Assembly: GCA_002238685.1 (NCBI GenBank)
Contig: MPMV01000023.1
Span: 1 to 64,000, forward strand
Source: a bacterium EF100-94H03 bin56
Lineage (GTDB): Bacteria; Pseudomonadota; Alphaproteobacteria; SP197
DNA length: 64,000 nt
Direction: 5' to 3'
In this document: piece by piece, positions 16,079 through 64,000 of the stretch
How the letters are laid out: each line of letters starts with the position of its first letter
Position numbering within the stretch: the first letter of the stretch is position 1
Program-made: the position numbers and the translations under genes
Notes under the pieces: generated by a model
Told to the model about the DNA's origin: nothing
Databases searched by the model: none
What the model saw: only the letters and a program-made list of their open reading frames with translations

Positions 16079-16195
16079 GGCTGTGGTCGCTGGTTACCGG
16101 CGTCTCATCCCTTGTGCGCCTGCCTGCTGCCGGAGACAAGGGATGCGGGCAAGAAAATGCCCGTTTGCCAGCGTTGTCGGTGCCGTGACCGCCCT

Positions 16196-44584: not shown

Positions 44585-45802
44585 ATGGATCGTTCCTGGA
44601 GATCACCTCTTGTCGTGATCGCCGCGGGCTGCGTCATCGCCATGATCGGCTTTGGCGTACGTTCCGTCTTCGGGCTCTTCCAGGAGCCCGTGTCGCTCTA
44701 TCACGGCTGGAACCGGGAAGTGTTCTCCATGGCGCTCGCTGTGCAGAACCTGCTCTGGGGTCTTGGCGTTCCGGTAGCCGGCATGATCGCCGACCGCTTT
44801 GGTCCCAGCCGGGTGATCATCGGCGGAGCGATCGTCTATGCCTTCGGCATCTGGGCGATGTCGGTTGCCGAAACCGGCACCATGTTCGTTCTGGCAGCAG
44901 GTGTCCTGGTCGGTCTCGGTGTCGCCTTCACCGCCTTTTCCCTGGCGCTTGCCTCCATGGTCCGGGTCGTGACGGTGGAGCGGCGTTCCTTCGTTCTCGG
45001 ACTTGGCACCGCCGCCGGCTCCTTCGGCCAGTTCGTCTTTTCGCCCAATGCCCAGTTCGCCATCAGCCTGTTCGAATGGCAGGGCGCACTCATGGTCCTG
45101 GCGGCGGCATCACTGGTGATGATTCCACTGGCCGTCCTCCTGCCTGCTGCGTCTCCGGCCGTCGACGAGAGGGCCCATGAACAGGGCATGCGGGATGCCA
45201 TCGTCGAGGCCGGGCGACATTCCGGGTACGTGCTGTTGACTCTCGGTTTCTTTGTCTGCGGTTTCCAGATTGCCTTCATCACCGTGCATTTCCCGGCGTT
45301 CGTGACCGGATCCGGCTTTGATGCGACGGTGGCTGCCTGGTCGCTGGCCCTGGTGGGCGTCTTCAACATCGTCGGCTGCCTCCTGGCGGGGGTGGCCGGA
45401 CAGCGCTGGAGCAAGCGCTACAGTCTTTCCACCATCTACTTTGTGAGGACCGTGCTCATTGTCGCCCTGATGCTGGCTCCAAGAACCGACGCCATGATCT
45501 ATCTCTTCGCCGGATGCATGGGTCTCGTCTGGCTGGCCACCGTGCCCCTGACGTCGGGGATCGTCGCCCAGGTCTTCGGCACCCGCTACATGGCCACCCT
45601 CTTCGGAATTGTTTTCTTCAGTCACCAGGCGGGCAGTTTCATCGGTGTCTGGCTGGGAGGACGACTCTTCGATGTAACCGGTTCCTACGATGTGATCTGG
45701 TGGATCAGCGCGGTGCTTGGACTGCTTGCCTGTCTGGTCCATCTTCCCATAAACGAGAGACCTCTGGCGCGCCTTGCCGCCGCCCCGCTCCGGGGTGCGT
45801 GA
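44585..45802 (+). CDS. MFS transporter (monocarboxylate/oxalate-like group)
   Basis: 405 residues, about twelve hydrophobic helices. GMIADRFGPSRVII is the MFS motif A loop between TM2 and TM3, and the second half shows VAGQRWSKRY and FFSHQAGSFIGVWLGGRLFD, as seen in monocarboxylate-type MFS carriers. It probably moves an organic acid. The ligand is not predictable. Confidence 0.88.
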   Translation: MDRSWRSPLVVIAAGCVIAMIGFGVRSVFGLFQEPVSLYHGWNREVFSMALAVQNLLWGLGVPVAGMIADRFGPSRVIIGGAIVYAFGIWAMSVAETGTMFVLAAGVLVGLGVAFTAFSLALASMVRVVTVERRSFVLGLGTAAGSFGQFVFSPNAQFAISLFEWQGALMVLAAASLVMIPLAVLLPAASPAVDERAHEQGMRDAIVEAGRHSGYVLLTLGFFVCGFQIAFITVHFPAFVTGSGFDATVAAWSLALVGVFNIVGCLLAGVAGQRWSKRYSLSTIYFVRTVLIVALMLAPRTDAMIYLFAGCMGLVWLATVPLTSGIVAQVFGTRYMATLFGIVFFSHQAGSFIGVWLGGRLFDVTGSYDVIWWISAVLGLLACLVHLPINERPLARLAAAPLRGA

Positions 45803-45843
45803 CCATCGATGGGCGTCCGCCACACGACTGAAGGACTGGCTGC

Positions 45844-48462: not shown

Positions 48463-48466
48463 ACCC

Positions 48467-49276
48467 GTGCCCCGCTTCACCTCATCCGGCGCCTCGTTGT
48501 GGTACGACCAGACCGGGTCCGGTCCCGACATCGTCTGGCTTCCCGGTGGTGACCAGCGCGGTTCGGAGATGCGCTGGCAGGTGGAAGGCTTCCCGGACTA
48601 CCGGAACACGACGATGGATCCCCGTGGCGTCGGCGAGACCGAAGCCCTCGAGGGCCCGCCGTGGTCCATTCTCGACATGGCGCGCGACTGTGCCGAACTG
48701 ATCGAGGCGCATTGCAGGCCACCGGTGGTGGCGGCGGGTCTCTCCATGGGCTCGCTCATCGTCCAGGAACTGGCGATCAACTGGCCGCACCTCGTGCGCC
48801 TTGTCATCCCCATGGGGACCTTCGCCGTGTCGGAAGGGTTCTCCCGGGAGTGGATGGAGGCAGAGATCCGTTTTCGCCGGAACCACGGCGATCTCCCCTT
48901 CGACTTTGCCGTCACCCACTACGCGGCCTTCATGTATCCGCCGGAAGTGCTCGACGACCCGGACTTGTGGGGGAGTCTGAGGGCGGTGACGGAGGCGGCC
49001 TACGGGAAACGGGACGGCGCCATGCTCGATGCCCAGTGGCAGGCCTGTTGCGAGTTTGACACGACATCGAGGCTTCCCTCGTGCGAGGTGCCGATCCACG
49101 TCATCGGTTTCGGACTCGACATGCAGGCGCCGCCATCCCTTGGCCGCAAGTGCGCCGAACTGGCGGCGAACGGCCACTATCATCACCTTGACGGCCTCAG
49201 CCATCTCTCCCTCTGCGGCCATCGCCACGACGTGGTCAACACCACAATCCGCGCCATCATCGAAGGGCACGGCTGA
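48467..49276 (+). CDS. alpha/beta hydrolase fold protein
   Basis: 269 residues from GTG 48467, 9 bp after AGGAGG; that site sets the start. VWLPGGDQRGSEM gives the oxyanion region, DPRGVGETEAL follows, the nucleophile Ser is in AAGLSMGSLIVQ, and the likely His is in GLSHLSLCGH. The closest look is to small-molecule esterases, lactonases or haloperoxidase-like members. Probably co-transcribed with pepN. Substrate unknown. Confidence 0.85.
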   Translation: MPRFTSSGASLWYDQTGSGPDIVWLPGGDQRGSEMRWQVEGFPDYRNTTMDPRGVGETEALEGPPWSILDMARDCAELIEAHCRPPVVAAGLSMGSLIVQELAINWPHLVRLVIPMGTFAVSEGFSREWMEAEIRFRRNHGDLPFDFAVTHYAAFMYPPEVLDDPDLWGSLRAVTEAAYGKRDGAMLDAQWQACCEFDTTSRLPSCEVPIHVIGFGLDMQAPPSLGRKCAELAANGHYHHLDGLSHLSLCGHRHDVVNTTIRAIIEGHG

Positions 49277-49397
49277 ACCCGGCATCCGGTGTCGTTGCCC
49301 CGTTATCCGGTTCTTCGCGACGGAGCTCTTGTTCCTGGTGCTGTCGATGAGCCCGCGGCTGGAAGGACTGTTCCTGGCAGTGCCGACAAGGGGCGCA

Positions 49398-51068
49398 TCA
49401 GTTTGATGCGGTTCCGTGGCGGTATCCGTAGTCCCTCCTGGCGGCGGCGGGGGTCACGAGGCCGCTCTTGAGATCGGCGGCGATCAGTCCCGGATCCCGA
49501 GCTGCCGGATCGCCGTAACCACCGCCTCCTGGCGTTTCGATCCGGAGTGTTTCGTCCGGGGGAATGTCCTGTTCGCCCTTGCCGTTGAGGTGGCGCCCCG
49601 ACGACAGGCGCACGGTGCCGCAGGCGCCATTGCTGCCGCCATCGCGACCCCGTGCAGGGAAGGTGACCCTGTCGAACGCTGCCGCTATCTGGAGGGTGGC
49701 ATTCTCGGCGGAGCCGACCTCGATGATCTGTCCGTGGCCGCCGCGATGGCGTCCGGCGCCTCCCGAATCGGGGCGCAATTCGCGGCGCCAGACGATCAGC
49801 GGGGCGACGGATTCAGCCAGTTCCACCTGGGTTCCGATGACGCCCGATGGAAAGGCCGTTGCATCGAGACCGTCACTCGATGGGCGTGCGCCGGTGCCGC
49901 CGTTGTGGACCATTTCCAGGGCGAAGCGGGTCTGCCCGCTGCTGTGATAGATGCCGAATCCGCCGCGCAGGGAAAGGTCCCAGAGCACCGACGTTCCTTC
50001 TGCCGGCACACTGCCGGGCCTCGCTCTGTGCAGACAGCCCAGCGCCGCATCGGGAAGCAGCTGCCCGACAATGTGGCGCATGACCACCGGAGCCGGCTTT
50101 GTGGCATTCATGATCGACCCTTCAGGTGCGGTCACCCGGAAGGGTTCGAGGGCTCCGGCGTTGTTGGGAATGTCGGGAGCAATGACGCACTTGAGACCGA
50201 ACACCGTGTAGGCTTCGGAATAGGTCAGCGGGCAGTTGATGCCGTACCGGGAAGCGGGCGAACTGCCGGTGAAATCGATCGTGAGGGAGCCGTCGGATAT
50301 GGTGAGGTGCGCCGCAATCCTGATCTCGAACTCGTAACCGTCGACCATCATCTCGTTCGACCAGGATCCGGAAGGCCACGAACGCAAGCGTTCCCGCGTC
50401 GCTTCGCGCGACGTGTCGATGATGTGGTCTGAAAGCCCTCCAAGAGAGGCAAGGCTGAATTCCCGCATCATGTCGGCAAGCCGTTCCTCACCCACCTCGC
50501 AGCAGGCAATGAGAGCGTAGAGGTCGCCTTCGTTCTGCACCGGAACCCGGCTGTTTGCCCTGAGGAGCGACATAAGGGTGCTGTTGATCTCCCCGCTCTC
50601 GATGAGCCTGAGGGGCGGGATGTACATGCCCTCCTCGTGGACGTCGGCGGCCTCGGGACCGAAACTCCGGCCGCCGATGTCGGCGAGGTGCGACGTGCAG
50701 GCATTGAGGCCGATCACCTCGCCATCCAGGAAACAGGGCTTCACCAGCACGAAATCATTGAGGTGCCCGGCACCAATCCAGGGATCATTGGTAACCCACA
50801 GGTCACCGGGCCGGGCTTCGCCGGGAGGAAAGTGCCTGATGAGATGGCGGACCGAATTCGCCATGGTGTTGATGTGGCCGGGTGTCCCCGTCACCGCCTG
50901 GGCCATCATGCGGCCCTCGAGATCGAAGATGCCCGCCGAGATGTCGCCGCACTCGCGCACGATGGGACTGAAGGCGGCGCGCATCAGCGTCTGGGCCTGT
51001 TCCTCGACGACCGAGATGAGACGGTCCCACATGATCTGGAGATGAATTCTCTCGAGTGCGTCGGTCAT
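49398..51068 (-). CDS. hyuB: hydantoinase/oxoprolinase B-type subunit
   Basis: 556 residues; its ATG at 51068 overlaps the hyuA stop as ATGA. Family blocks: SVVEEQAQTLMRAAFSPIVRE, DLWVTNDPWIGAGHLNDF, TDFTGSSPASRYGIN-like FTGSSPA, and a Gly-rich end IETPGGGGYGDP. HyuB forms a complex with HyuA for ATP-dependent hydrolysis of N-methylhydantoin, 5-oxoproline or hydantoins, and acetone carboxylases share the fold. Lacks an AcxC-type third subunit, favouring hydantoin chemistry. Confidence 0.93.
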   Translation of the reverse strand: MTDALERIHLQIMWDRLISVVEEQAQTLMRAAFSPIVRECGDISAGIFDLEGRMMAQAVTGTPGHINTMANSVRHLIRHFPPGEARPGDLWVTNDPWIGAGHLNDFVLVKPCFLDGEVIGLNACTSHLADIGGRSFGPEAADVHEEGMYIPPLRLIESGEINSTLMSLLRANSRVPVQNEGDLYALIACCEVGEERLADMMREFSLASLGGLSDHIIDTSREATRERLRSWPSGSWSNEMMVDGYEFEIRIAAHLTISDGSLTIDFTGSSPASRYGINCPLTYSEAYTVFGLKCVIAPDIPNNAGALEPFRVTAPEGSIMNATKPAPVVMRHIVGQLLPDAALGCLHRARPGSVPAEGTSVLWDLSLRGGFGIYHSSGQTRFALEMVHNGGTGARPSSDGLDATAFPSGVIGTQVELAESVAPLIVWRRELRPDSGGAGRHRGGHGQIIEVGSAENATLQIAAAFDRVTFPARGRDGGSNGACGTVRLSSGRHLNGKGEQDIPPDETLRIETPGGGGYGDPAARDPGLIAADLKSGLVTPAAARRDYGYRHGTASN

Positions 51069-53173
51069 GACGGGGTTGCCTCCCGTGCTTCGAGGACGAT
51101 GTATCCATTGCAGTCGATTCGTCCGTGGAATGATGCGGTGACCACGGTGGTGGTCTGTCCTTCGGTGATGACGCAGGGTCCCTCGAAGACGGCACCGGGG
51201 GCCAGCGACTCCCTGCTGAGAACCGGCACATCCACCATCTGTCCGGTGGCGGGGTCCACAAGGAGGCGACGTGGCGAACCTGCACCTTCGTCGCTCCTGG
51301 CGGTCATCACCGTTTCGGGATCATCGGGCATCGGTGCCATCACCACGAGTTTCCAGCCGAGAATCTCGACGTCCATTCCCGGCACGTTGCGGGCATACTG
51401 CCTGGCGTACTCGTGGTCGTAGGCCGCCTGCAGGAGATCCCTTTCGTCACCGCCGATGTTTCCACCGCTGACGGGGACCTCGATCTCGTGTCCCTGTCCA
51501 AGGTAGCGCATGAAACAGCTGCGGTGTTCGACCAGGGGAACGTTGCCGGCACCCTGACGAACGATCGTCGATGCCTCGTCAGCCATGGCGGAGAAAAGGT
51601 TCGCAACCACGGCGGCATCGAACGTCGCCAGGGTCATGTAGCGGCTGCGCACGATCTCGAAGGCAACCGGTGCGCGCAGCATGCCGACGGCTGAACCGAC
51701 GCCGGGGTGATCCGGGATGACGACCTGCCGGATGCCGAGCTTTTCGGCCATGCGACAGGCATGCAGAGGGCCGGCGCCTCCGAATGCAATCATCGTGCAT
51801 TGCCGCAGGATCTTGCCTCTCTCGACAGCGTGGACCTGGGCGGCACTGGCCATGTTCTCATCGACAACTTCCGATATGCCGAGCGCCCCGGTCATGACGT
51901 CCATGGACAGGAGATCGGCGATGGTCCGCCGGATGGACTTCGCGGCAGCTTGAGTGTCGAGGGGCATGGTGCCGCCAGCGAATGAGGTTGCCTCGAGACG
52001 GCCGAGAACGAGGTCGGCGTCGGTCACGGTGGCATCGCTTCCACCCCTGGCGTAGCAGCTTGGTCCCGGCTCCGATCCCGCACTTCGGGGTCCGACCTCG
52101 ATGCGCCCGAGGCTGTCGATTCCGGCAACGGACCCTCCGCCGGCGCCGATCTCGATCATTTCGATCACCGGCAGGCGAACGGTCATGCCGCTTCCCTTCA
52201 TGAAACGCGCCGCCCGGGCAATCTCGAAGATGCGGGCCGTTTGCGGCCTGGCATCGTCAATCAGGCAGACCTTGGCTGTGGTTCCGCCCATGTCATAGGA
52301 AAGAACGCGGGCATCGCCTCGTCTGGCGGCCACCCGGGCGGCGAGAACGGCACCGGCACTCGGTCCCGATTCAACGAGACGGATGGGAAAGCTGACAGCC
52401 GTCTCGAGAGAGCAGATGCTGCCGCCCGATGTCATCAGCAACAGGGGTCCGCAGATGCCGGCACGGGCGAGATCGTCGCCGAGCGCTTTCAGATAACGGG
52501 CCATGAGCGGTCGCACATAGGCATTGCACACGGTGGTCGTGAGCCGCTCGTACTCACGCACTTCAGGACAGACCTGTGAAGAGAGCGTGATCGACACGCC
52601 GGGGCATTCGCGAAGCAGAAGGTCCCGCACGCGTTCCTCGTGACGCGGATTGGCATAGGCATGCAGGAGACCGATAGCGACGGATTCGATCTTCTCGTCA
52701 CGAATCCGCCCTGCGATTTCCAGGACACCCGCCTCGTCGAGCTCCTCGAGCGGGGTTCCGGTGACGTCGATGCGCTCCGCCACCGGCCAGGTGAGGTGGC
52801 GAGGGACAAGTGGTTCGGGCTTGTTCAGCCAGATGTCGTACTGGTCGTATCGGTTCTCGTAGGCGAGGCGCAGCGTATCGCGGAAACCCCGGGTGCAGAC
52901 CAGGGCTGTTCTGGCACCCTTTCTTTCGATGAGCGCATTGGTGGCAAGCGTGGTGCCGTGGATGACCGAGCGGACCTCATCGCCACTGATGCCGGCCTGA
53001 TCCACCGCCAGCCTGATGCCGGTCAGCACGCCCTGTTCCGGCGCCCGCGGGGTCGTGGGGACCTTTGATGTCTCGAGGCGGCCATCGCTGGTTTCGAGGG
53101 CAACGTCCGTGAACGTGCCACCGACATCTATTCCAATGCGGACACGACCTTGGGAAGCGGCGTTTTCAGACAT
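51065..53173 (-). CDS. hyuA: hydantoinase/oxoprolinase A-type subunit (ATP-binding)
   Basis: 702 residues from ATG 53173 (MSENAASQGRVRIGIDVGG). The actin-like ATPase phosphate loop is IGIDVGGTFTDVAL, and ASK-type blocks include SVIHGTTLATNALIERKGA, LSYDMGGTTAKVCLI and CTMIAFGGAGPLHA. It couples ATP cleavage to ring opening with HyuB. Products would be N-carbamoyl amino acids if hydantoins are used, a substrate for the carbamoylase at 42.1 kb. No regulator is next to it. Confidence 0.94.
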   Translation of the reverse strand: MSENAASQGRVRIGIDVGGTFTDVALETSDGRLETSKVPTTPRAPEQGVLTGIRLAVDQAGISGDEVRSVIHGTTLATNALIERKGARTALVCTRGFRDTLRLAYENRYDQYDIWLNKPEPLVPRHLTWPVAERIDVTGTPLEELDEAGVLEIAGRIRDEKIESVAIGLLHAYANPRHEERVRDLLLRECPGVSITLSSQVCPEVREYERLTTTVCNAYVRPLMARYLKALGDDLARAGICGPLLLMTSGGSICSLETAVSFPIRLVESGPSAGAVLAARVAARRGDARVLSYDMGGTTAKVCLIDDARPQTARIFEIARAARFMKGSGMTVRLPVIEMIEIGAGGGSVAGIDSLGRIEVGPRSAGSEPGPSCYARGGSDATVTDADLVLGRLEATSFAGGTMPLDTQAAAKSIRRTIADLLSMDVMTGALGISEVVDENMASAAQVHAVERGKILRQCTMIAFGGAGPLHACRMAEKLGIRQVVIPDHPGVGSAVGMLRAPVAFEIVRSRYMTLATFDAAVVANLFSAMADEASTIVRQGAGNVPLVEHRSCFMRYLGQGHEIEVPVSGGNIGGDERDLLQAAYDHEYARQYARNVPGMDVEILGWKLVVMAPMPDDPETVMTARSDEGAGSPRRLLVDPATGQMVDVPVLSRESLAPGAVFEGPCVITEGQTTTVVTASFHGRIDCNGYIVLEAREATPS

Positions 53174-53338
53174 CGTGTTCAGTGTGCTGAATAACTGATG
53201 CGACCCGGACCGCATTGGACGGCATCCGGCTCGGCCAGGCATGCCACAAATGGCGAGGTCGCCGGGAGAATGCCACCCTTCGAGAGCCCGTCAACCCCAC
53301 CGCGTTGCCTGACGGCACTCCGGCGCGCCCGTCATTGG

Positions 53339-54199
53339 TCATGTCGAGCCGTGACCACCCCGCCGCCCGGCAAGAAACTGGCAGAGTTCGGAATCGGGCA
53401 CCTGCTGTTCCGAATAGGTAAAGGTGCCTCGATCGCGGATCTCCGCCGCCGCGCGCCGGATGAGTCCGAACGTGGCGCGGGCCAGCGACCCGCCGATACT
53501 GACCCGCTTTACCCCCAGATCCTCGAGCTCAATCACGGTCAACGGATTGCCGGCAAGTCCCATGACCACGTTGACCGGGGTGTCGACTTCCTTCACCAGA
53601 CGGCCAATGGTCTTTGCGTCGGTCATCCCGGGCACGTAAAGGCAGTCGGCTCCCGCGTCTCTGTAGGCCGTGGCTCTCTTCACCGATTCCGCGAACGGAT
53701 TCGCGGACCCGGCCAGATAGCACTCTGCTCTTGCCGTCAGGGTAAACGGAAACGGCAGGGAGGCTGCGGTCGCCACCGCCGCCTCGATTCTCTCGACCGC
53801 CAGGGTGTGATCGTAGAGAGTGCCCGTGCCGTAGGAGGCGGCAAAGTCTTCGATGCTCGCGCCGACCGCACCGGTCTTAGCCACCCGGCGGATGGTCTCT
53901 GCCACCTCCTCCGGGGAGTGTCCGTAACCGTTCTCGGCGTCCACGCTGACCGGTATCCGAACGGCGCGGCTGATTCGGCCGGTTTCCTCCAGCGCCGCCT
54001 CACGAGTGAGCGCTCCCTCATAATCCGGCAATCCCAGACCGAAGGCGATCCCCGCGCTCGTCGTGCCCACCGCAGGGAAGCCTGCAGCTTCGAGCATGCA
54101 GGCGCTGCCGGCGTTCCACGCGTTCGGCATCACGAATATTCCATCGGCCGAATGCAGATCCCTGAACACGATCCCTCTGCTCTTCTGCGCTTCATCCAT
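53339..54199 (-). CDS. isocitrate lyase / PEP mutase family protein
   Basis: 286 residues from ATG 54199 (MDEAQKSRG). TIM-barrel family motifs: VMPNAWNAGSA, TTSAGIAFGLG, VSVDAENGYG (Mg-binding Asp/Glu), and VGASIEDFAASYG. It lacks the KKCGH cysteine loop of true isocitrate lyase, so it belongs to the PEP mutase/methylisocitrate-lyase-like group that makes or breaks C-C or P-C bonds next to a carboxylate. Reaction unknown. Confidence 0.88.
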   Translation of the reverse strand: MDEAQKSRGIVFRDLHSADGIFVMPNAWNAGSACMLEAAGFPAVGTTSAGIAFGLGLPDYEGALTREAALEETGRISRAVRIPVSVDAENGYGHSPEEVAETIRRVAKTGAVGASIEDFAASYGTGTLYDHTLAVERIEAAVATAASLPFPFTLTARAECYLAGSANPFAESVKRATAYRDAGADCLYVPGMTDAKTIGRLVKEVDTPVNVVMGLAGNPLTVIELEDLGVKRVSIGGSLARATFGLIRRAAAEIRDRGTFTYSEQQVPDSELCQFLAGRRGGHGST

Positions 54200-54540
54200 G
54201 GCCCGGCGTTCCCTTTCACACCAACTGGTACAGACTTCATGAAACATGTGATCACAGGGCGCCCGGACCATCGCAGAACACTGCATCCCCAGCCCCCGCG
54301 CAAGGAGCCCAAGCATGTGATCCCAACAAGCCTCGGGCGCGGTTTACAAGCATGCGACGCGCGACGGAAAGAAAAATCCGTGACGTGTGTCCGGATGGAC
54401 TTCGATCCCGTGCAAGATGCCGTCGGCAGTTCAAGCGAGAAGCGCATGCAAGTTCGTCCGTGTGGCATCTCAGCCTCGACCGCCTGGTTGAACAGCAGAC
54501 CTGCAAGCGTGTCACGATCGTCGCATGAATCTGACGGGCC

Positions 54541-54640
54541 TCAGGAGCCGACCTCGTCGATCGCGGCCATGCTTGGTCGAACCGGCATTCGTTCCAACCA
54601 GGATTTCAGCCGGGGTTGATTGCCCAGCAGCTGTCGACCC
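54541..54640 (-). pseudogene. glutathione S-transferase C-terminal remnant
   Basis: The minus strand reads QLLGNQPRLKSWLERMPVRP then SMAAIDEV and a stop. This matches the last helix of many proteobacterial GSTs (P-x-L-x-x-W-x-x-R-M-x-x-R-P). Upstream the frame loses any GST character. A fragment of 30 or so residues, so the call is tentative. Confidence 0.5.
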
Positions 54641-54762
54641 TGCGGCGCCGGTCGAAAGCAGGCGAACATCAGCGAGGCTCGGAGGGGCGGCCAAGCATGC
54701 TCCGTTCGACCGGCGGGAGGCAAGTGTGGTAATCTTGAGCCGAAGACGACAGGGGCCTTCGG

Positions 54763-54960
54763 CGATGATGGTCAATGACTCCTGCCCCGGACCGGCCTTC
54801 ATCGCGGACGCGGTGCGGCGCGATTGCCACGTCGAGGTCGTCTGGGACGCCAAGCCGCTTTCAGCGCATCTGGCTGCGCGAAGACTGCTACAGCATCCGC
54901 GGCCGGGCAGATCTTCGCTTCCGACCGACCCTGTGGACGGCCGCCACCATCGAAGGCCGC
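54763..54960 (+). pseudogene. possible TauD/gamma-butyrobetaine dioxygenase N-terminal remnant
   Basis: One frame gives CHVEVVWDAK. The next frame continues RFQRIWLREDCYS, which resembles the W-D-G...F-x-x-x-WLRDNC start of gamma-butyrobetaine hydroxylase-like proteins. At least one frameshift separates the parts, and nothing of the catalytic domain follows. Weak evidence. Confidence 0.35.
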
Positions 54961-55059
54961 ACGGAGATGAACTATCGCCAGGCTGCTTGCGTCACGTCCG
55001 TCGCCCGCAATCGAGCCAGCATTGATTGCCTGGGCTAGCTTGGAAAGGGAGAGCTATCG

Positions 55060-55947
55060 ATGACGCAGTGGGAGATTGCGAAGTTTGCGCCTTCGGCGGC
55101 ATCAGACGGCATTGCTGCGGCGGTGACTCGCGATGGATGCGCCATAATTGAAGGGCTCGCCAGCGAGAACACCCTGGATTCGATAGAGCGGGAGTTGGCG
55201 CCCCATGTGGAGGTAACGCCCAAAGGCGACGGCGAAATCATGGGCTTCGAGACGAAGCGAACCGCGGGTCTCATGGGGAAGTCACCTGGCGCGGGCAGCC
55301 TTGCATGCGAGCCGCTCATACTCGACATCGTTGACAATATCCTCGGTCCCTACTGCGACCGTTTCCAGATCATGTCGACTACCACCATCTCGATCGGCTC
55401 CGGGGAAACCCTGCAGCCGCTTCATCGAGATGACGGTCTGTACCCGTTCCGGCATCCCAGCCAACGCGAGTTCATCGTCGCCACGTTATGGGCGTTGAGC
55501 GATTTCACCGAGGAAAACGGAGCTACCCGCATGATCCTGGACAGCCATCGCTGGGACGACGAGCGGCAGCCCACCCAGGAGGAGACGATCCCGGTCACCA
55601 TGACCAGGGGCTCGGTGAGTGTTTATCTCGGTTCGGTCTATCACGGCGGCGGCGCCAATCGCTCGGCCGGCGAACGCACCGGTCTCTATATCGGCTACTG
55701 TCTGGGCTGGTTGCGTCAGGAAGAGAACCAGTTCTTGGCGGTTCCGCCCGACGTGGCACGTACGCTGCCTGAACAGCTTCAGGGTTTGCTCGGTTATTCG
55801 ATTCATCGGCCGTTTCTGGGCTGGTGCGAGCATCAGGATCCGAGAAACCTGCTCGCCAAAGACAACTCTGCCGCCGGTGAACGGCCCGACACGATCCATG
55901 AGGGCGTCGACACCGTGGAGCAGGGGCCCGAGGTGCGGAGGGTGTAG
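55060..55947 (+). CDS. PhyH (phytanoyl-CoA dioxygenase) family protein
   Basis: 295 residues from ATG 55060 after AAAGGGAGAG. Iron ligands: HxD in PLHRDDGLYPF and the distal His in SVYHGGGANRS. The Arg two turns later (GERTGLYIGY) should bind 2-oxoglutarate. It is intact, unlike the copy at 39.1 kb, and shares only the general fold with it. It faces the dimethylformamidase genes tail to tail. Possible role: hydroxylation, for example oxidative N-demethylation of the amide substrate, which is inference only. Confidence 0.9.
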   Translation: MTQWEIAKFAPSAASDGIAAAVTRDGCAIIEGLASENTLDSIERELAPHVEVTPKGDGEIMGFETKRTAGLMGKSPGAGSLACEPLILDIVDNILGPYCDRFQIMSTTTISIGSGETLQPLHRDDGLYPFRHPSQREFIVATLWALSDFTEENGATRMILDSHRWDDERQPTQEETIPVTMTRGSVSVYLGSVYHGGGANRSAGERTGLYIGYCLGWLRQEENQFLAVPPDVARTLPEQLQGLLGYSIHRPFLGWCEHQDPRNLLAKDNSAAGERPDTIHEGVDTVEQGPEVRRV

Positions 55948-56022
55948 AGTGCATCACGGTGCGCCGTAGCACGATTTGGCGAGTTTGCTACCCCGGCACC
56001 TTCTGGCGGCGCATGGCCACGT

Positions 56023-58394
56023 TCAGAGAGGCGCAGGATCCAGGAAGCGTCTGAGCACGTTGTCGGTGACTTTCGAGACATTGTTGTCGTAGCCGTTGTG
56101 GCAGAGGCTTCCGGACCAAGACATTGAGCTTGTAGAGAACACGCCACCACCGTTGGGTGTTTCGAAGAACACCATGTCGCCCCGGGCTTGGCTGTTGTCC
56201 ATGGCGCCTAGACCTGGCGAAATCATCAGGCAATCTTCGACAGTCGGCAGATACTGATTGGAAAGACCCTCGGAGCTGGCGAGCACCAAAGTGTGGGGTG
56301 GCGACCCCAAATCGCCATCGCAGCGATCAAGTTCGATGCCGGCCGCACCACCCCCGACCACACCGAAATCGCCAATGATTTCGTCGTCAATACCGGAGAA
56401 GATGAACTCTGCCCTGGACTCATAGCTACCCGGTTTTCTCCTGTAGTATCCGCATATGTCAAAACCTTCGACCGCCATGCCGACACCGACCAGAGTTCCC
56501 GGTGGCCGTCCGATGCGGCGCCATATGCCGCCGTATTCACCGTTGAAGCTGTGGTAGTACTCACCGGGTGCGGCCGACTTTTCGCGAAATTCGACTTCGG
56601 TGCGACGCAGTTCGACAACCCCCGGCAATGTGCCGTGATAGGCGACGCGTGAATAGAAGCCATTGCCTCCCATGTACATCAATCGTCCGCCCTGGCGGAG
56701 ATACGTGTCGAAGGCGTCCCACATGCGCGTCGACACGTACTCGGGATGCGTGCCGGTCATCACTGCGCTGTACTGGCCGATCAGCTGCAGGCCCTCGTCG
56801 TCGAGATCGTCATCCGTGATCACGTCGTAATCGTGTCCCATGGCTTCGAGCCAGTCGACGATGTGCAGGTCGGCGTTGAACTGCCATGGCATGTTTCCGC
56901 CAGGGCCGACCCACGAAATGGTGATGCCGGGCCGCATGTTGAGAATGGGACGCAAGCGCGAGGAATGGCACACTGCGCTGCCATCGAAGAAAACATCGTA
57001 CATCGAATGCCCGAACTCGGGGTGCGCGTTCAGGAACAGATCCTCGGGGCTCAGTGATGTGAGGTGTCCGTTGAAGATTTCGGATCCGCTTGATTCGACG
57101 ACCATGTGCTCGTTGGCGTAGGCCCAGTAGCTCGCGGTCGGGATCAGCAACGCCAGATCCGCGTTCCTGGAGCCGCGCGGCGGTCGTACGAAGAACGGAA
57201 TGTGGTCTTCATCTTCGCCCGATGTCAGGCGAGCCGCGTAGACGCCGCTGCGCATGTCTGCTGGAATTGTGTACTCGAAATCCGCTTCCCAGCCCGCGTC
57301 GTAAAGGTCATCCTCGTGAAAATGAATGGCGCCGTACTGCTCGGGGGCGTGTTGCCAGTTCATCTCTTTCCCGGTCCAGTTGTAGCCCGTCATCGCCCGC
57401 ATCGGCAGGTTGACCAGCATCCCGTCGATACGGTTCGCCGACGCATCCTCGATGCGTGTCGTCGGAATTGCCCGGGCAAAGTCCCATGCTGCAATGACCG
57501 CTGGCCGAAGGTCCGCCGGTATCGGTCGTTGCAGCAGCGCTGTCATCGAGTCGCGGTCCAAGACGCGGTTGGCGATGCGCGGACTGTCGATCTTGCCGTT
57601 GTAGTGGTGCGTCCCCACCGCCCTGCCGCCGGCTTCCCCTCCATAGGTTGCGGCAATCATGAACGGAGCATGGGATCGTCCCGGCCTCCTGCTTGTCCTG
57701 GTCTTGCATACTTCTGCGACAGAATTGGCCAGGGGATTTTCGACCAGTGGAACTTGGTGGATGCAAACTTCGCCGGTTTCGGCATCGAAACTCGCACCCA
57801 CGAGATACCACTCGCGTTCGTGCAACGGTTGGCCCGAACTCACGATCTCGACGTTGTCCTCACCGTCTCCCAACATCAGGGCCAGTGTCGCGTCATTGTC
57901 GATCACCAGCGCGTAACCGCTTTGGTCAGGCTCGGACCACTTGCCGAGCAATGCTTGACGCCCCCGTGCCGGTGTGGTCGGCCAGATCATCGCCTGAAGC
58001 GTGAAGCTTGAAAGTGCGGCGAATGGCGCATCGCGGCCGATCACGCCGTGGGAGCCCGCGTGAATCGCTTGCTGCCGTCCGGCGAATTCGCCCGCCGCCA
58101 CAGGCTCCATCACGGGCTCCTTGAAGCCGGCCCCTTCCGGAGGCCGATCGCGCGGTGGAGCCCGGGGTAAACCGTTTCCGGCCGCCGGGCAATTCCGCCC
58201 GCCGCCACAGGCTCCATCACGGTCTCCTTGAAGCCGGCACCTTCGGGATGCCGATCTCCCGATATCAGGCGCACGATGTCCGCCCGATAGTGCGAGACTC
58301 CATAGCAGCTCACCATGAAGCGGACGGTCTCTCCCGGTTGTACGCTGATACGGTTCGTGTAACCGACAATCTTCTTTTCCTTTATCGTCGTCAT
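56023..58394 (-). pseudogene. dmfA2: N,N-dimethylformamidase large subunit, frame broken by a 107-bp duplication
   Basis: N-terminal frame from ATG 58394: MTTIKEKKIVGYTNRISVQP, then GETVRFMVSCYG. It loses frame in a duplicated segment and continues as APFAALSSFTLQAMIWPTTP, a LamG-like region with GKWSEPDQSGYAL. The catalytic half follows: LIPTASYWAYANEH, YDVITDDDLDDEG, VMTGTHPEYVSTRMWDA, GGRLMYMGGNGFYSRVAYH. Total 2372 bp minus 107 is 755 codons, matching the known large subunit of about 760 residues. The enzyme hydrolyses N,N-dimethylformamide and similar amides at a mononuclear iron site. The break is probably a sequence error. Confidence 0.85.
58035..58248. repeat. 107-bp imperfect tandem duplication in dmfA2
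   Basis: Copy A 58035-58141 and copy B 58142-58248. GCCGCCACAGGCTCCATCAC occurs at 58094 and 58201, and TCCTTGAAGCCGGC follows both. Copy B's distal half is a C/G-enriched, indel-bearing version of copy A. Because 107 is not a multiple of three, the frame is lost. Confidence 0.9.
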
Positions 58395-58421
58395 TGCCGA
58401 TGTCTCCCAACAGGTCGCGCC

Positions 58422-58721
58422 TCAGTTCAAGTCTTCGCCAGTCAGCGTTTTCCAACGCCTCTTGAAGACCTCCCATTCAGCGTCTTCAGCGCATGTGAAC
58501 ACCTGGTCATCTACAACTTCGACCGGATCACCCCGGACGCCGCTAAGCCTGCCCAGAATCCATTCTCGATGAGGTTTGACGCAGAGAAGGACATACTTGC
58601 CGGGGAAAGGATCCGCTCGGACCACGTTGAGCATCTGCTGGAGATCGGCGCTATGGTGGCCCACTGGATTGGCCCGGAACTCTTCCACGAGGTCCTTGCG
58701 TGACGGATCAATCTTGTACAT
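58422..58721 (-). CDS. dmfA1: N,N-dimethylformamidase small subunit
   Basis: 99 residues from ATG 58721, with AAGGGGGA upstream; a GTG at 58745 would add 8. The sequence ANPVGHHSADLQQMLNVVR, GKYVLLCVKPHREW and EWEVFKRRWKTLTGE matches my memory of DMFase small subunits. It lies just upstream of the large-subunit gene, 27 bp apart, the known gene order. The small subunit stabilises the large one. Somewhat short compared with the characterised form of about 130 residues. Confidence 0.75.
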   Translation of the reverse strand: MYKIDPSRKDLVEEFRANPVGHHSADLQQMLNVVRADPFPGKYVLLCVKPHREWILGRLSGVRGDPVEVVDDQVFTCAEDAEWEVFKRRWKTLTGEDLN

Positions 58722-58895
58722 CTGCGCGTCCCCCTTCTTCGACACTTCCAGTCTATCACCGACCTCGGCGACTCCCCAATCCCAAGTTCAACGGTAGACC
58801 GTGGATTTGAGGTCGGTCTGTTCGTCCAAGTCGTTGAAGATGCGGGTTACTGGAGTCCGGTTTCCGTGAGCCCGAAAATGCTGTAGCGAAACATT

Positions 58896-59600
58896 TTGGA
58901 CGTGTTCCGGATTCTGCTTGATTTTAGGCTTGTCGAGCGGAACTACCCTTCGACGTTCGTCCGCGAGGGCAAGCATGTACGCCGATGCGAGATTCGCGCT
59001 CTCGGCCGCGGGGACGTCCTTCGACCGGCTGATCGCCTTGTTGGTGCGGCATTCCGAGCGGGCCTAGTGCCGAACGACATGGAAGCCGGCAATCTCGCCT
59101 GCATCCGCATCGGCGGACCGCTCTTGTTCGGGCGGCTCTGGGGGCGGCTGGGGCTGGGCGATGAGTTCGAACCGACCGGAGAAGGTGATCTTGCGCCGCG
59201 CTGCGTGAAGGACGAGACCGAGGAACGTCTGTTCGAGCGCCGGCGTGACCTGTTCACCGACTCGTCGCTGGTCTTCATGGACACCACTACCTTGTCGATT
59301 CCCGGCGCGGGCGGGAAAAGCCTGGCGGCGGCGATCGCGGAGTCGGCGGAACGGGGTCATGTCTTCTACTCGTTCCGCTCGCTGGTGCTGCAGATAGTGC
59401 TGGCCGACCTCTGCGGACCCCACGAGGTCTCCGTCGAATGGGACGATCTGGTCCGAGATCTCGACCGACTGCAGAAGGCGAGCATCGAGAAGAACGGCAA
59501 GCGCGTCACCATGCGCACGCCGGTCTCCGGGCGGGTCTGGCCTGTCTTCCAGGCCGCCGACATTGCGCTGCCGCCAAACTGGCGTGAACTCCATGCTTGA
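58896..59600 (+). mobile_element. IS1634-family (IS4 superfamily) transposase remnant with internal deletion
   Basis: The open frame joins two transposase ends. The first part has GPLLFGRLWGRLG, ERLFERRRDLFTDSSLVFMD and TTTLSIPG, holding the first catalytic Asp. It then passes directly to AERGHVFYSFRSLVLQIVLADL and LQKASIEKNGKRV...VFQAADIALPP, which is the IS1634-type C-terminus. About 200 central residues, with the other catalytic acids, are missing near 59315. The element cannot move by itself. Terminal inverted repeats were not identified. Confidence 0.7.
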
Positions 59601-60100
59601 CCCTCATCCCCCAGAAAGGGAGTGCATACACCCGACACCGTCGACGTAATATCGTTAATTATCCTATACTTGGAAATCGCGCTGTAGAAGTCTGGCCAAA
59701 CCCGTGCGCCTCGATGCAGCCCTGCGCTCCGATGCAGTCCCGCACCGAGAGCGACAGGTGCTTGCTTGCCACTCGCTTGTCAGGTGATGACGAGCGGCGT
59801 ATGCTTCACGCAGCGGCTGGAACACGCAAAACTCAGGTGTCCCCGGCGGCGGAGGAGGGTCGTGTGACAATTGGCCACGATGGCCACCCTCAGGTGGTTC
59901 CTGCAGCGCAACGTCGAGCAATGACTGACGCGGCCGTGTGCATGTTCGAGTTGCTGCCCAATCGCAACGTCAACCCCAAAGTCAAGAGCCGGAAGCGGTT
60001 TCTGCGGAAGACTCCGAATCCCTTACGTCTGGCTGCTGGGCGCGGAATGCTGCATGTCCACCCGCCTCGTCGCGGACACTGCCGAGAGGGAGTTGTCACC
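59601..60100. other. intergenic region before second importer
   Basis: About 500 bp between the transposase remnant and the binding protein. An AT-rich patch near 59649-59675 (AATATCGTTAATTATCCTATA) stands out in this GC-rich DNA and could be a promoter or an IS edge. I see no supported gene. Confidence 0.45.
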
Positions 60101-61678
60101 ATGCAACGATCAAAGTTCTTTCCGGTCTTGGCGTCCTGCCTGGCCGTTTTCGGACTGCTACTTGTTTCGGGAGTTGGCTCATCCGCGGGGGCGAGCAGCT
60201 CAGGTGGGACAATCACATGGGCAAAGCCTGACGAGGCGCAGTCCCTGGACCCCCATACCGACTTCAACGGGAACACATGGAAGTTCTTCTTTCCGGTCTA
60301 CGATACGCTCGTGACAACGGGAGAAACCCTCGATCTTCAGCCCGGCATCGCAGAATCTTGGGAGCAGACTTCACCCACGACATATGTCTTCCAGCTTCGC
60401 AAGAACGCGGCATTTTCCAACGGGAGGCCTGTCGTCGCCAGCGATGTGGTGGGCAGCCTGGAGCGTGTCCTCGATCCCGACACGGGGTCATGGTGGGCGA
60501 ACGCCCTGGGAGCCGTGAGCGAAATCGTTGCCGAGGGCGACCATGTGGTGCGCATCGAACTCGAGAAACCGCACACGCAACTGCTCTCGGCGCTCGCCCA
60601 TGTCTCGACGGCGATCATGCCAATGGAGGAGTACGCCGCGGGAACTTTCGATCCAACCAAGGAACTGATGGGTTCCGGCCCCTTCATGGTGACCGAGCAT
60701 CTGCAGGACCAGTCCTGGACCTACGAGGCCAACCCCCACTACTGGGGCGAAGGCCTGCCGGTTGCCGACGAACTGAAAATCCTGATCGTCCTTGACGAGG
60801 CGGCGCGTATCGCGGCGCTTCGGGACGGACGTGCGGACATCGGCACGTTCGTCAACCCGGATCTTCCGGCTCTGCTCGAGGGTGATGAAAACATCACCGT
60901 CGTGACACAGGAAACGGCGAGCTACTACAACCTCGATGTCAACGCCCTTTCGGAGCAGTCACCCTTCACCGACATCCGCGTCCGCCAGGCGATGAACCTC
61001 GCCCTTGATCGCGAAGAAATCAGCCGGGTCGCGTTGGGCGGCATGGGTGCCGTCGACTATCCGCTGCCACGGACCTTCCCCTCATCAAAGGTATGCGTCG
61101 ACGTACCCTCCTATTCGGGATCGAGAGAGGAAAGGCTCGAGAGTGCACGGGCCCTGATGAGCGAGGCGGGCGCCGAAGGGGTGGAAATCGACTTGTTGAC
61201 CACCTCGGCACTGCCTTCGCTCATCCACATCGCGCAGGTAATCAAGCAACAACTCGCCGACATCGACATGAACGCCAACATCCTGCAACTCGGCTATGCG
61301 GAATGGATCGACGCCGTGTGGGTGCGCGGTGAGTTCGACCTGAATGTGACCTGGCTTTCGGGCTACGGCGACCCCGCTATCGTGCTCGGTTCGTGGAATC
61401 CGGAGAAAACGGGATGGAACGCCCACTATCTCGTTTCGGATCCGGAACTGAACGACAAGATTGCCGAGGCTGCGGAGACTCCCAGTGGTGACGAGCGAGA
61501 TGCGCTGTTCGCCGAGATTTGCGCGTTGATCGACGATGGAGCGAACATGGTGGCACTCGTCAACAAGAACAGCATCATCGCCTACCGCAATGACCGGGTC
61601 GAAGTGAACATCCATCCTGCGGAAGGCTACGAGGACGAGCTGAAGTACATCGAGGAATTTGCCCGCATCGCGCCGTAG
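60101..61678 (+). CDS. peptide-type ABC transporter substrate-binding protein (SBP_bac_5), second system
   Basis: 525 residues from ATG 60101. Sec-type signal (FFPVLASCLAVFGLLLVSG). Family 5 body: WAKPDEAQSLDPHTDFNG, IAESWEQTSPTTYVFQLRKN, VASDVVGSLERVLDPDTG, GSGPFMVTEH, DIRVRQAMNLALDREEI. Distinct from the 29.5 kb protein, which uses a Tat signal. First gene of a second Dpp-type operon; likely ligand is a peptide-like or amide compound. Confidence 0.93.
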   Translation: MQRSKFFPVLASCLAVFGLLLVSGVGSSAGASSSGGTITWAKPDEAQSLDPHTDFNGNTWKFFFPVYDTLVTTGETLDLQPGIAESWEQTSPTTYVFQLRKNAAFSNGRPVVASDVVGSLERVLDPDTGSWWANALGAVSEIVAEGDHVVRIELEKPHTQLLSALAHVSTAIMPMEEYAAGTFDPTKELMGSGPFMVTEHLQDQSWTYEANPHYWGEGLPVADELKILIVLDEAARIAALRDGRADIGTFVNPDLPALLEGDENITVVTQETASYYNLDVNALSEQSPFTDIRVRQAMNLALDREEISRVALGGMGAVDYPLPRTFPSSKVCVDVPSYSGSREERLESARALMSEAGAEGVEIDLLTTSALPSLIHIAQVIKQQLADIDMNANILQLGYAEWIDAVWVRGEFDLNVTWLSGYGDPAIVLGSWNPEKTGWNAHYLVSDPELNDKIAEAAETPSGDERDALFAEICALIDDGANMVALVNKNSIIAYRNDRVEVNIHPAEGYEDELKYIEEFARIAP

Positions 61679-61744
61679 CGAGACCGCGCCGGGGCCGTCG
61701 TCAACGCCCCTGGCGCTGCGGGCCCAAGGGGATGGAGGAGCAGT

Positions 61745-62710
61745 TTGCGCGTCGTCCGGTTTGTCCTGTTTCGCCTGAGCGTCGCGCTGCTCACGTTGTT
61801 CGGGGTTTCAATCATCGTCTTCGCGGCCATTCGTTTCGTGCCGGGTGGGTTCGAGGATGTCGTCCTCGGCCCATTCGGCACGCCGGAGACCCGGGAAGCC
61901 GTGCGGGCCAAGTACGGTCTGGACCGGCCTCACCTGGAACAATACGTGCTCTGGTTGGGTGCGACGACGAAAGGCGACTTCGGTACTTCCCTGACCACCG
62001 GGCAGCCGGTCGCCGCGGAGATCATTCGTCGTGCTCCGGCCACGATCCAGCTCGCCTTGATGAGCACACTGCTGGCGATCGTTGTTGGCGTGCCCCTGGG
62101 TGTTGCCTCGGGGGTGACGAGCACCAACCGCGTCGCACGAGCCGCCGGACGTCTCGTCGGGGCGCTGGGCGCCAGCGTCCCGACGTTCGTTCTCGGCACC
62201 GTGTTCGTCTTCGTATTCTCCGTATGGTCTCTGGGGGTGACCGTCGGCGGCTATGTCCCCTTCTTCGAGGACCCCTTGGCCAACATTCGCGCCATGACGC
62301 TCCCGGTCGTGACGCTGAGCGTCTTCGGTATGGCTCTCATTCAGCGCACCACACGGGATTCAGTACTCAACGTCACCTCTGAAACGCATATCACCGCGGC
62401 GGTGGCGCGAGGCGAGAGACCCCCGGACATCATTCGGGGCCACGTCCTGCGCAACGCGTCAATTCCCATCGTGACTGTAACCACGGTGTTTCTCGCATAC
62501 CTCCTTGGCGGCGCGGTCATCGTCGAACAGATGTACTCAGTGCCCGGCATTGCCGTCTACGTGGTTCAAAGCGTCGAAAACAGAGACTATCTGGTCGTGC
62601 AGGCTGGTGTGCTCCTGGCCGCCACGTTCTTCGTCTCGATCAACATCCTGGCAGATGCCATTTACGCGCTCATCGACCCGCGAATTGGCGGGCAGCGGAG
62701 AGACTCGTGA
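61745..62710 (+). CDS. peptide-type ABC permease, DppB-like, second system
   Basis: 321 residues from TTG 61745, with GGAGGAG just before it supporting this start. N-terminal LFGVSIIVFAAIRFVPGG, the later GTSLTTGQPV, EAA loop in ITAAVARGERPPDIIRGHVLRN, and MYSVPGIAVYVVQSVENRDY. It overlaps the next permease by 4 bp (GTGA). Confidence 0.92.
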   Translation: MRVVRFVLFRLSVALLTLFGVSIIVFAAIRFVPGGFEDVVLGPFGTPETREAVRAKYGLDRPHLEQYVLWLGATTKGDFGTSLTTGQPVAAEIIRRAPATIQLALMSTLLAIVVGVPLGVASGVTSTNRVARAAGRLVGALGASVPTFVLGTVFVFVFSVWSLGVTVGGYVPFFEDPLANIRAMTLPVVTLSVFGMALIQRTTRDSVLNVTSETHITAAVARGERPPDIIRGHVLRNASIPIVTVTTVFLAYLLGGAVIVEQMYSVPGIAVYVVQSVENRDYLVVQAGVLLAATFFVSINILADAIYALIDPRIGGQRRDS

Positions 62711-63570
62711 CTCTGCTGGTCAGAGGTCCTCTTTCGGAACTGCTCGACTTCGTTCGGCGAGACCGCCTGTCGGGCGCCGGGGCGATTCTCCTGGCAACAT
62801 TGGTGCTTCTGTGCCTTTTCGGGCCGTGGTTGCCACTCGGCGATCCCGAGGAAATCGGGATCGGGCCTCGTTTGTCGGTACCGGCCTCCGGATGGCTGCT
62901 CGGAACCGACGAACTCGGTCGGTCCGTGCTTCCGCGCATTGTCGACGGGCTTCGTTCAACGTTCCTGCTGGCCGGCACTGCGGTGGTCCTCACGGGCCTG
63001 TTCGGCACCCTGATCGGATTGGTAGCTGCCTACGCCGGCGGTTTCGTCGACATGACGATCATGCGTCTGGTGGACATCCTGTTCGCGTTTCCGCCGCTGC
63101 TGCTCGGTATCCTGATCGCTGCCGCGCTCGGCCCGGGGGGCACCTCGGCGATACTGGCGATTGCTCTCATTACCCTGCCACTGTTCGTTCGCGTCGTGCG
63201 CGCCGTGGCGCTGAGCGTGGCCGCACGCTCCTACGTCATCGCTGCCGAGGTCAGCGGAGCCGGGTTCTTGCGCGTCATTCTGGTCCACTTGCTGCCCAAC
63301 GTGCTCGGCGCGGTCATCATCCAACTCACCTACGCGCTGTCGATCGGCATGCTGGTCGAAAGTGAGTTGAGTTTCCTGGGTCTCGGCGTCCAGCCCCCTG
63401 ACGCCTCACTCGGGTCGCTGCTGCGTCTCGGCAGTGTCTATCTGACCATCGCTCCCTGGTTGGTCTTTCCAGCCGGCCTGTTGCTGGCGACGGCAATTCT
63501 TTCGGTCAATCTGCTGGGTGACGGGCTGCGCGACATGATCGACCCTCTTCGAGGCAGACCGTTGCGATGA
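62707..63570 (+). CDS. peptide-type ABC permease, DppC-like, second system
   Basis: 287 residues from GTG 62707 overlapping the previous stop. LLGTDELGRSVLPRIVDGLR is the DppC N-terminal block, RSYVIAAEVSGAGFLRVILV plus HLLPN the EAA loop, and SFLGLGVQPPDASLGSLL the C-terminal signature. Overlaps the ATPase gene as ATGA. Confidence 0.93.
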   Translation: MTLLVRGPLSELLDFVRRDRLSGAGAILLATLVLLCLFGPWLPLGDPEEIGIGPRLSVPASGWLLGTDELGRSVLPRIVDGLRSTFLLAGTAVVLTGLFGTLIGLVAAYAGGFVDMTIMRLVDILFAFPPLLLGILIAAALGPGGTSAILAIALITLPLFVRVVRAVALSVAARSYVIAAEVSGAGFLRVILVHLLPNVLGAVIIQLTYALSIGMLVESELSFLGLGVQPPDASLGSLLRLGSVYLTIAPWLVFPAGLLLATAILSVNLLGDGLRDMIDPLRGRPLR

Positions 63571-64000
63571 GCTCGCTTCTCGACGTTCGCGACCTTGTCG
63601 TGGTCTACAACACGCCGCGAGGCACCGTTCTCGCGCTGGACGGTGTGAGCGTGGGCCTGAATGCAGGCGAGACGCTCGGTATCGTAGGCGAAAGTGGGTC
63701 CGGCAAGAGCACGCTGGGCCTGGCGATCGGCCGGCTGATGCCCCAGAACGCCTACCGGCTCTCGGGAGATCTGGTCGTGAACGGGCACTCGGTCTTCAAG
63801 GGTGACGACGAGAATCTGCGCATTCTGCGAAGAGATGCGCTCGGCTTCATATTTCAGAATCCCATGGCCGCGCTCGACCCGACCATGCGCGTCGGACGGC
63901 AGTTGACACGAGCCGTCGGGCGACGGGCGGCGCCAGAAAAGGTGTTTTCCTTGTTATCCAGTGTGGGGTTGACCGAGACCGAGAGGGTCTTCCACAGCTT
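63567..64000 (+). CDS. peptide-type ABC ATP-binding protein, second system, partial
   Basis: About 144 residues visible before the window ends. Walker A GESGSGKSTLGLA and Q-loop FIFQNPMAALDP are present; the signature motif, Walker B and C-terminal half lie beyond 64000. Gene order implies a DppD-like subunit, with a DppF-like partner or fused second domain to the right. Confidence 0.92.
   Translation, partial: MSSLLDVRDLVVVYNTPRGTVLALDGVSVGLNAGETLGIVGESGSGKSTLGLAIGRLMPQNAYRLSGDLVVNGHSVFKGDDENLRILRRDALGFIFQNPMAALDPTMRVGRQLTRAVGRRAAPEKVFSLLSSVGLTETERVFHS

Follow-up and report, generated by a model that had tools for sequence, protein, structure and literature searches.

Dimethylformamidase-type genes in a block with a Dpp-type importer, an amidase, and a PhyH-family dioxygenase in an alphaproteobacterium

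The DNA analyzed here (the window) comprises positions 1 to 64,000 of contig MPMV01000023.1 (C86 in our numbering) from the 4.5-Mb genome assembly GCA_002238685.1 of the alphaproteobacterium EF100-94H03 bin56. Its right end carries dmfA1 and dmfA2, genes for the small and large subunits of an enzyme related to dimethylformamidase (DMFase), along with genes for a PhyH-family dioxygenase and a Dpp-type importer. A reading made from the sequence alone (the sequence-only reading) had proposed these genes and a gene of the phosphoenolpyruvate (PEP) mutase family, and matches to Pfam and to the DMFase chains 6lvb_A and 6lvb_B in the PDB confirmed that all of them are present. Apart from the PEP mutase-family gene, they belong to a nine-gene block, in the order PhyH, dmfA2, dmfA1, binding protein (SBP), permB, permC, oppD, oppF, and amidase, that is a real unit whose last genes lie beyond the end of the window.

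The large-subunit gene, dmfA2, occupies two open reading frames (ORFs) on the minus strand. The downstream ORF (56023 to 58110; 695 amino acids) has a complete metal site and matches the DMFA2_C domain (PF20254, E value 9e-96; 321.9 bits versus a Pfam cutoff of 27), 6lvb_A (E value 7e-148), and N-acetyl-(R)-beta-phenylalanine acylase (8huy, E value 1e-127). The N-terminal ORF (58110 to 58394; 94 amino acids) encodes the start of domain I followed by a decayed duplicate. An imperfect direct duplication with an offset of 107 bp (58010 to 58250, limits approximate, minus strand) breaks the frame. Compared with the gene in the sister species RHO1_bin_48 (G007), which is a single intact frame of 753 amino acids, the window gene has a 107-bp insertion that is an imperfect copy of adjoining sequence. 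Thus, both subunits of the proposed two-gene enzyme match DMFase, but dmfA2 is not one open frame in the window. The small-subunit gene, dmfA1 (58422 to 58718, minus strand; 98 amino acids; 6lvb_B E value 3e-5), is 85% identical in G007.

The TGA of the 94-codon ORF (58394 to 58110) overlaps the ATG of the 695-codon ORF (58110 to 56023) in the sequence TGATG, and a possible ribosome-binding site, AAGGAG, lies upstream of this restart. The ratio of nonsynonymous to synonymous divergence (dN/dS) of the downstream ORF relative to the G007 gene is 0.127, and that of intact neighboring genes is 0.06 to 0.125. The first 55 aligned codons of the upstream ORF are 80% identical to the G007 gene (dN 0.111, dS 1.16). 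By these comparisons both parts still look conserved, which suggests that the gene is functional through coupled restart at TGATG, that it was broken recently, or that it was misassembled.

The importer genes are on the plus strand and make up the complete set typical of Dpp/Opp-type ATP-binding cassette (ABC) importers: an SBP_bac_5 binding protein (60101 to 61678; PF00496, E value 4e-74), permeases of the DppB (61745 to 62710) and DppC (62707 to 63570) types, both matching PF00528 (BPD_transp_1), and two ATPases. The OppD-type gene starts at 63567, is cut by the window end at 64000, and continues to 64535 on the contig; oppF follows past the window (64546 to 65487). OppD and OppF were assigned from the look of their sequences, their mutual similarity, and their position, without a Pfam scan of the two. 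Solved binding proteins of the Dpp/Opp type match the window protein weakly (8upi, E value 6e-39, then OppA and others), and all named NCBIfam models scored far below their cutoffs. The amidase gene (65537 to 66979 on the contig) reaches 361 bits with NCBIfam model NF004815, below its 506-bit cutoff. At the other end of the block, the PhyH-family Fe(II)/2-oxoglutarate dioxygenase gene (55060 to 55947, plus strand) is convergent with dmfA2. It matches the PhyH domain (PF05721, E value 6e-28; 98.9 bits versus a cutoff of 22), the HRD and distal H...R motif is seen in the alignment, and the protein is 77% identical to the copy in the G007 block. Its best solved relatives are swnH2 and swnH1 (E value 4e-28); going by the names of the closest solved proteins, their substrates are small molecules of various kinds.

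The same block order was found in G007 on contig C7, with the amidase, oppF, oppD, permC, permB, and SBP on one strand, dmfA1-dmfA2 divergent from the importer, and PhyH convergent. The left flank of the block in the window (an MFS protein, a PepN-type peptidase, a hydrolase identified by Pfam, hyuB, hyuA, and PEP mutase) is syntenic on a different G007 contig, C78. Nucleotide identity is 84 to 90% between window positions 45113 to 54395 and C78 and 75 to 78% between positions 55038 to 66939 and C7. The DmfA2 proteins of the two blocks are 75% identical, compared with 86 to 96% in eight further ortholog pairs of DmfA2 between these species. From these comparisons, the block lies at different places in the two genomes and its history differs from that of its flank. 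The stronger divergence of the block and the low identity of its DmfA2 pair fit separate acquisition of related blocks, which is the simplest reading, with the caveat that one or both contigs may be chimeric.

This comparison also showed which neighbors are linked to dmfA. The sequence-only reading had begun the feature at 53339 and thereby took in the PEP mutase/isocitrate-lyase-family gene (53339 to 54199, minus strand; 4lsb E value 7e-73; PF13714 E value 2e-78), which belongs to a different syntenic unit. PEP mutase and hyuAB were considered as members of the system and ruled out because both stay with the left flank on C78. The genes hyuB, hyuA, and PEP mutase (49398 to 54316) form a co-directional unit of their own, 84 to 91% identical and syntenic in G007; the HyuA protein is most like the caprolactamase alpha subunit (460 bits, cutoff 1000). 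The proposed linkage held for the importer and PhyH, whose order relative to dmfA1-dmfA2 is kept at a different position in the RHO1_bin_48 genome. An IS1634-family transposase remnant (approximately 58896 to 59600, plus strand; NCBIfam NF033559, E value 5.5e-7, below cutoff) lies between dmfA1 and the importer and has no other copy in the genome. The sequence-only reading had allowed that this insertion sequence (IS) remnant might mark the neighbors as unrelated insertions. It sits inside the block rather than at its border, and the G007 locus, with a gap of about 0.5 kb and no remnant, has the same genes on either side, so that suggestion was not borne out. A comparison of the block borders and the IS gap gave no repeats of more than 12 bp, the stretch from 44 to 64 kb had no Rfam match, and there was no tRNA in the window.

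Importers of this kind recur near dmfA2. A search for the DppB-type permease in the 16 genomes of the bacterial family (E value 1e-60) returned the window, the G007 block (82%), contig C25 of the same genome as the window (56%), and contig C69 of G001 (37%). The C25 importer, a second copy, has genes for the SBP, permC, oppD, and oppF together with an amidase (68%), and its oppF end is approximately 3.3 kb from dmfA1 and two dmfA2 genes. The window was the search seed and G007 shares the block; therefore, only C25 is an independent case of an importer with dmfA. A search of 385 genomes of the class added a single further close DppB-type permease (49%), in G095; two amidase genes adjoin its importer, and the contig breaks off a short way upstream of the SBP gene.

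Dpp-type importers also lie beside dmfA2 in unrelated lineages. The survey beyond the family covered 69 loci, made up of 66 of the 79 numbered L155 to L233 together with L131 to L133. Five of them had SBP_bac_5 within 6 kb of dmfA2, each with a copy on the same strand; within the same distance, four loci had LivJ-type and six had PotD-type binding proteins, and two had hyuA. In a Thalassobaculaceae metagenome-assembled genome (MAG; L203), genes for an amidase, a TauD-type Fe(II)/2-oxoglutarate dioxygenase, oppD, oppF, SBP, permB, permC, dmfA2, and gamma-glutamyltransferase follow one another on one strand, and the DmfA2 protein clusters with N-acetyl-(R)-beta-phenylalanine acylase (support 1.0). 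In a Rokubacteria MAG (L193) one strand carries dmfA1, dmfA2, permB, permC, SBP, and a gene of the N-formylglutamate amidohydrolase family (15519 to 16373). Same-strand runs of dmfA1, dmfA2, SBP, and permB in a Dehalococcoidia MAG (L168) and of dmfA1, dmfA2, a Liv-type importer, and an amidase in an alphaproteobacterial MAG (L187) were also found. At L156 (9495 to 16117), dmfA1 and dmfA2 are followed 29 bp on by a PotD-type protein gene; visual inspection indicated two permeases and an ATPase after it, as well as M24-like and OYE-like genes upstream. Separately, hyuA/hyuB are close to dmfA2 in several lineages, at L175, L226, L119, L140, and L152, where dmfA2 is of other branches than that of the window.

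The sequence-only reading regarded dmfA1-dmfA2 as rarely seen, yet the genome has 11 DMFA2_C loci. Fourteen of the other 15 genomes of the family have 4 to 12 DMFA2_C matches and one has a single weak match, whereas 45 genomes of other families have 0 to 2. In the class sample, 74 of 385 genomes have at least one match at an E value of 1e-40, and some other families (e.g., f56, f81, and f120) have up to seven candidates; at most four matches were scored per genome in this sample, so its counts are lower bounds. The bacterial family includes the MAGs RHO1_bin_48, SP197 (G005), SI072_bin42 (G009), and casp40-mb.99 (G010). The RHO in RHO1_bin_48 probably refers to the sponge Rhopaloeides odorabile, which appears in a sponge list in PMC8163846; several relatives are of open-water origin, judging by their names.

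To compare sites, 187 DmfA2 proteins were aligned with two solved references after removal of L154, which duplicates L091, and of 21 rows identical over their C-terminal 400 residues. Residues are numbered as in Paracoccus N,N-dimethylformamidase, with roles as described in PMC7686228. The iron ligands are invariant, with Tyr at positions 399 and 440 (Y399, Y440) and Glu at 521 (E521) in all 189 rows; H519 is His in 187 (Gln in 2), and N547 is Asn in 188 (a gap in 1). At sites 395/399/440/519/521/547/693, the window protein has S-Y-Y-H-E-N-M. The gate residue F693 is described in the same source as a constriction that accounts for the poor acceptance of larger amides as substrates. Only 42 rows have Phe at this site, which ranks 42nd in entropy among the 367 columns of domain III; the window protein has Met there and the G007 protein Val, with the alignment of this loop uncertain. 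Across these aligned proteins, the predicted iron site is fixed and the predicted size gate is variable.

In the tree, the window DmfA2 pairs with that of G007 at a support of 1.0, and the OG-N group is the next to join them (0.967). It falls outside the clade of the 6LVB DMFase, although that clade's own support is only 0.22. Like the Paracoccus enzyme (Arya et al. 2020, PMC7686228), the window enzyme has a large and a small subunit, in the same order as most homologues here, the Tyr-Tyr-Glu iron ligands, equivalents of His519 and Asn547, and LamG/pentraxin-like and DMFA2_C domains. The large subunits are 39% identical over 721 aligned positions. Unlike the Paracoccus enzyme, the window enzyme is importer-linked, is split in the assembly, is one of 11 paralogues, and has Met in place of gate Phe693. 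The acylase (8HUY) is in the same superfamily with the same ligands, and its substrate, by PDB name, is an amide larger than dimethylformamide (DMF); it is 37% identical to the window protein, has one kind of chain in the solved entry, and belongs to another clade, with the L203 enzyme.

Other arrangements were also seen. Loci of the orthologous group nearest the window in several genomes of the family (L067, L075, L103, and L124) have groES-groEL adjacent, by the look of the sequence. A fused dmfA1-dmfA2 gene of about 850 codons occurs in one orthologous group (L021, 8886 to 11438, minus strand, and L054, L084, L097, L121, and L137), with a possible fusion in another group (L119). Two or three different dmfA2 paralogues stand in tandem, in most cases following a single dmfA1, at L064, L069, L076, L100, L107, L120, and L136; SBP_bac_5 comes after the run in the first five and was not found in L120 and L136. 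At L023 (1809 to 10004), L056, and L098, a gene for a DMFA2_C protein of 536 to 571 amino acids, with no dmfA1, is near SBP_bac_5, two permeases, and PhyH; L130 is similar, with no PhyH detected. The short 536-amino-acid protein of contig C62 (L023) had no PDB sequence match.

The sequence-only reading had proposed that a larger N-alkyl amide is taken up actively, oxidized, and then hydrolyzed. These findings lead us to favor, with a little better than even confidence, the reading of the block as a mobile cassette for the uptake and hydrolysis of a natural compound that is bigger than DMF and carries an N-formyl or N-acyl group. The gene families, metal ligands, relocation, and recurrence are observed; the substrate class, the order of steps, and the regulation are our proposal. 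The Dpp-type importer (SBP, permB, permC, OppD, and OppF) would bring in an organic amide, and the divergently transcribed DmfA1/DmfA2, with two Tyr and one Glu as ligands of Fe(III), would cut an amide bond. The amidase-signature hydrolase would cut amide bonds too, and the PhyH dioxygenase may hydroxylate a carbon of the substrate or of a product. The amide would serve as a source of carbon and nitrogen. The strongest hint that an oxidation step belongs is that the combination of amidase, Fe(II)/2-oxoglutarate dioxygenase, Dpp importer, and dmfA2 arises twice, with PhyH here and TauD at L203. An N-formyl substrate is suggested because DMFase prefers formamides (PMC7686228) and because of the formylglutamate amidohydrolase-family gene at L193; the acylase clade suggests a larger acyl substrate. 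Formamides are known sponge products (PMC4728513) and might possibly be substrates, although several relatives bear names that point to open water.

How general the association is was evaluated with 106 merged dmfA2 loci of the family, omitting two weak hits (G003:C6 and G009:C380) and fragments at G011:C76. Loci cut by contig ends were counted with whatever flank was present. Expected numbers came from genome-wide counts and ignore relatedness, as do the P values, and the observed numbers lean low because our in-house profiles are probably less sensitive than the Pfam models behind the expectation. SBP_bac_5 was within 6 kb of dmfA2 at 17 loci versus 6.5 expected (P = 2e-4); nine of these are one orthologous tandem cluster (L019, L064, L069, L076, L082, L100, L107, L127, and L149) and four are one other group (L023, L056, L098, and L130). 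PhyH was nearby at 14 loci versus 8.6 expected (P = 0.048), so its general enrichment is weak. PotD-type binding proteins, of which this genome has 49, were within 6 kb in 24 of the 106 stretches. Amidase was rejected as a general neighbor of dmfA2 (8 of 106 within 8 kb versus 5.9 expected; 2 of 106 within 3 kb versus 3.0).

Several of these results weigh against a cassette. The survey, which the sequence-only reading had named as a test that could refute it, spoke largely against a general association, with 89 of the 106 loci lacking SBP_bac_5 within 6 kb and 92 lacking PhyH, and amidases are not enriched overall. In the group nearest the window (L156 and ten family loci), all 11 have dmfA1, but none has SBP_bac_5 and only one has PhyH in the fetched stretches. 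With 39 SBP_bac_5, 32 PhyH, and 21 amidase genes in this genome, single adjacencies can be chance. The window dmfA2 is frameshifted, and the activity of Paracoccus DMFase on formamides hardly extends to acyl-substituted amides (PMC7686228). The earlier observation was thus partly confirmed and its interpretation partly supported.

One alternative is that the genes are chance neighbors in an importer- and PhyH-rich genome and that the two species share the order by descent, with no functional link between the genes. The gene abundances, the small PhyH excess, and the origin of over half of the SBP_bac_5 loci in one tandem cluster are as expected from such an explanation. However, the block order is kept at two different genomic places, and tight same-strand runs of importer and dmfA2 genes recur in unrelated lineages, and thus we consider chance adjacency unlikely. 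It is also possible, although rather doubtful, that the locus is decaying, with dmfA2 a pseudogene following duplication and IS insertion and only the importer, amidase, and PhyH part working. The frameshift and the IS remnant are consistent with decay, but no further break was found in 695 codons, the dN/dS is close to that of intact neighbors, and TGATG coupling would still permit translation; in these data, decay, a recent break, and an assembly fault cannot be told apart. That the locus is truly one for methylotrophic degradation of DMF or N-methylformamide, with the importer, PhyH, and amidase as bystanders, we regard as very improbable. The resemblance to Paracoccus DMFase, with all metal ligands, H519, and N547, and the presence of dmfA1 would fit such a role. 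However, DmfA2 does not group with DMFase, within the limits of that clade's support, the gate differs here and in G007, and 11 paralogues are hard to explain by one solvent introduced, according to PMC7686228, in 1893.

If the block is an uptake-and-hydrolysis cassette, it may reflect something broader. Tentatively, and with less confidence than for the cassette itself, we suggest that DMFase-type Fe(III)-tyrosinate hydrolases could form a large family of modular hydrolases of natural amides that combine with exchangeable importers (Dpp, Pot, and Liv types) and with Fe(II)/2-oxoglutarate oxygenases. One marine and sponge-associated alphaproteobacterial group would have expanded them to roughly ten copies in each genome, keeping the iron site constant while the size gate varies, so as to use N-formyl and N-acyl natural products (in sponges possibly terpenyl formamides), and DMF degradation would be a recent by-use. 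Judged by titles, none of the literature found for dimethylformamidase, dmfA2, DMFase, DUF6605, or PF20254 concerns the expansion or an importer link, and a search for the acylase by strain and name found nothing. The structure paper calls two of the DMFase folds of unknown evolutionary origin (PMC7686228).

DMFase has so far been known from solvent degraders. The dedicated binding protein in the block offers a direct handle, via ligand screening, on a natural substrate of a DMFase-type enzyme, and the expanded, gate-variable family may supply ready-made amide hydrolases, built around a rare metal site, to enzymology and to work on the breakdown of pollutant and pharmaceutical amides.

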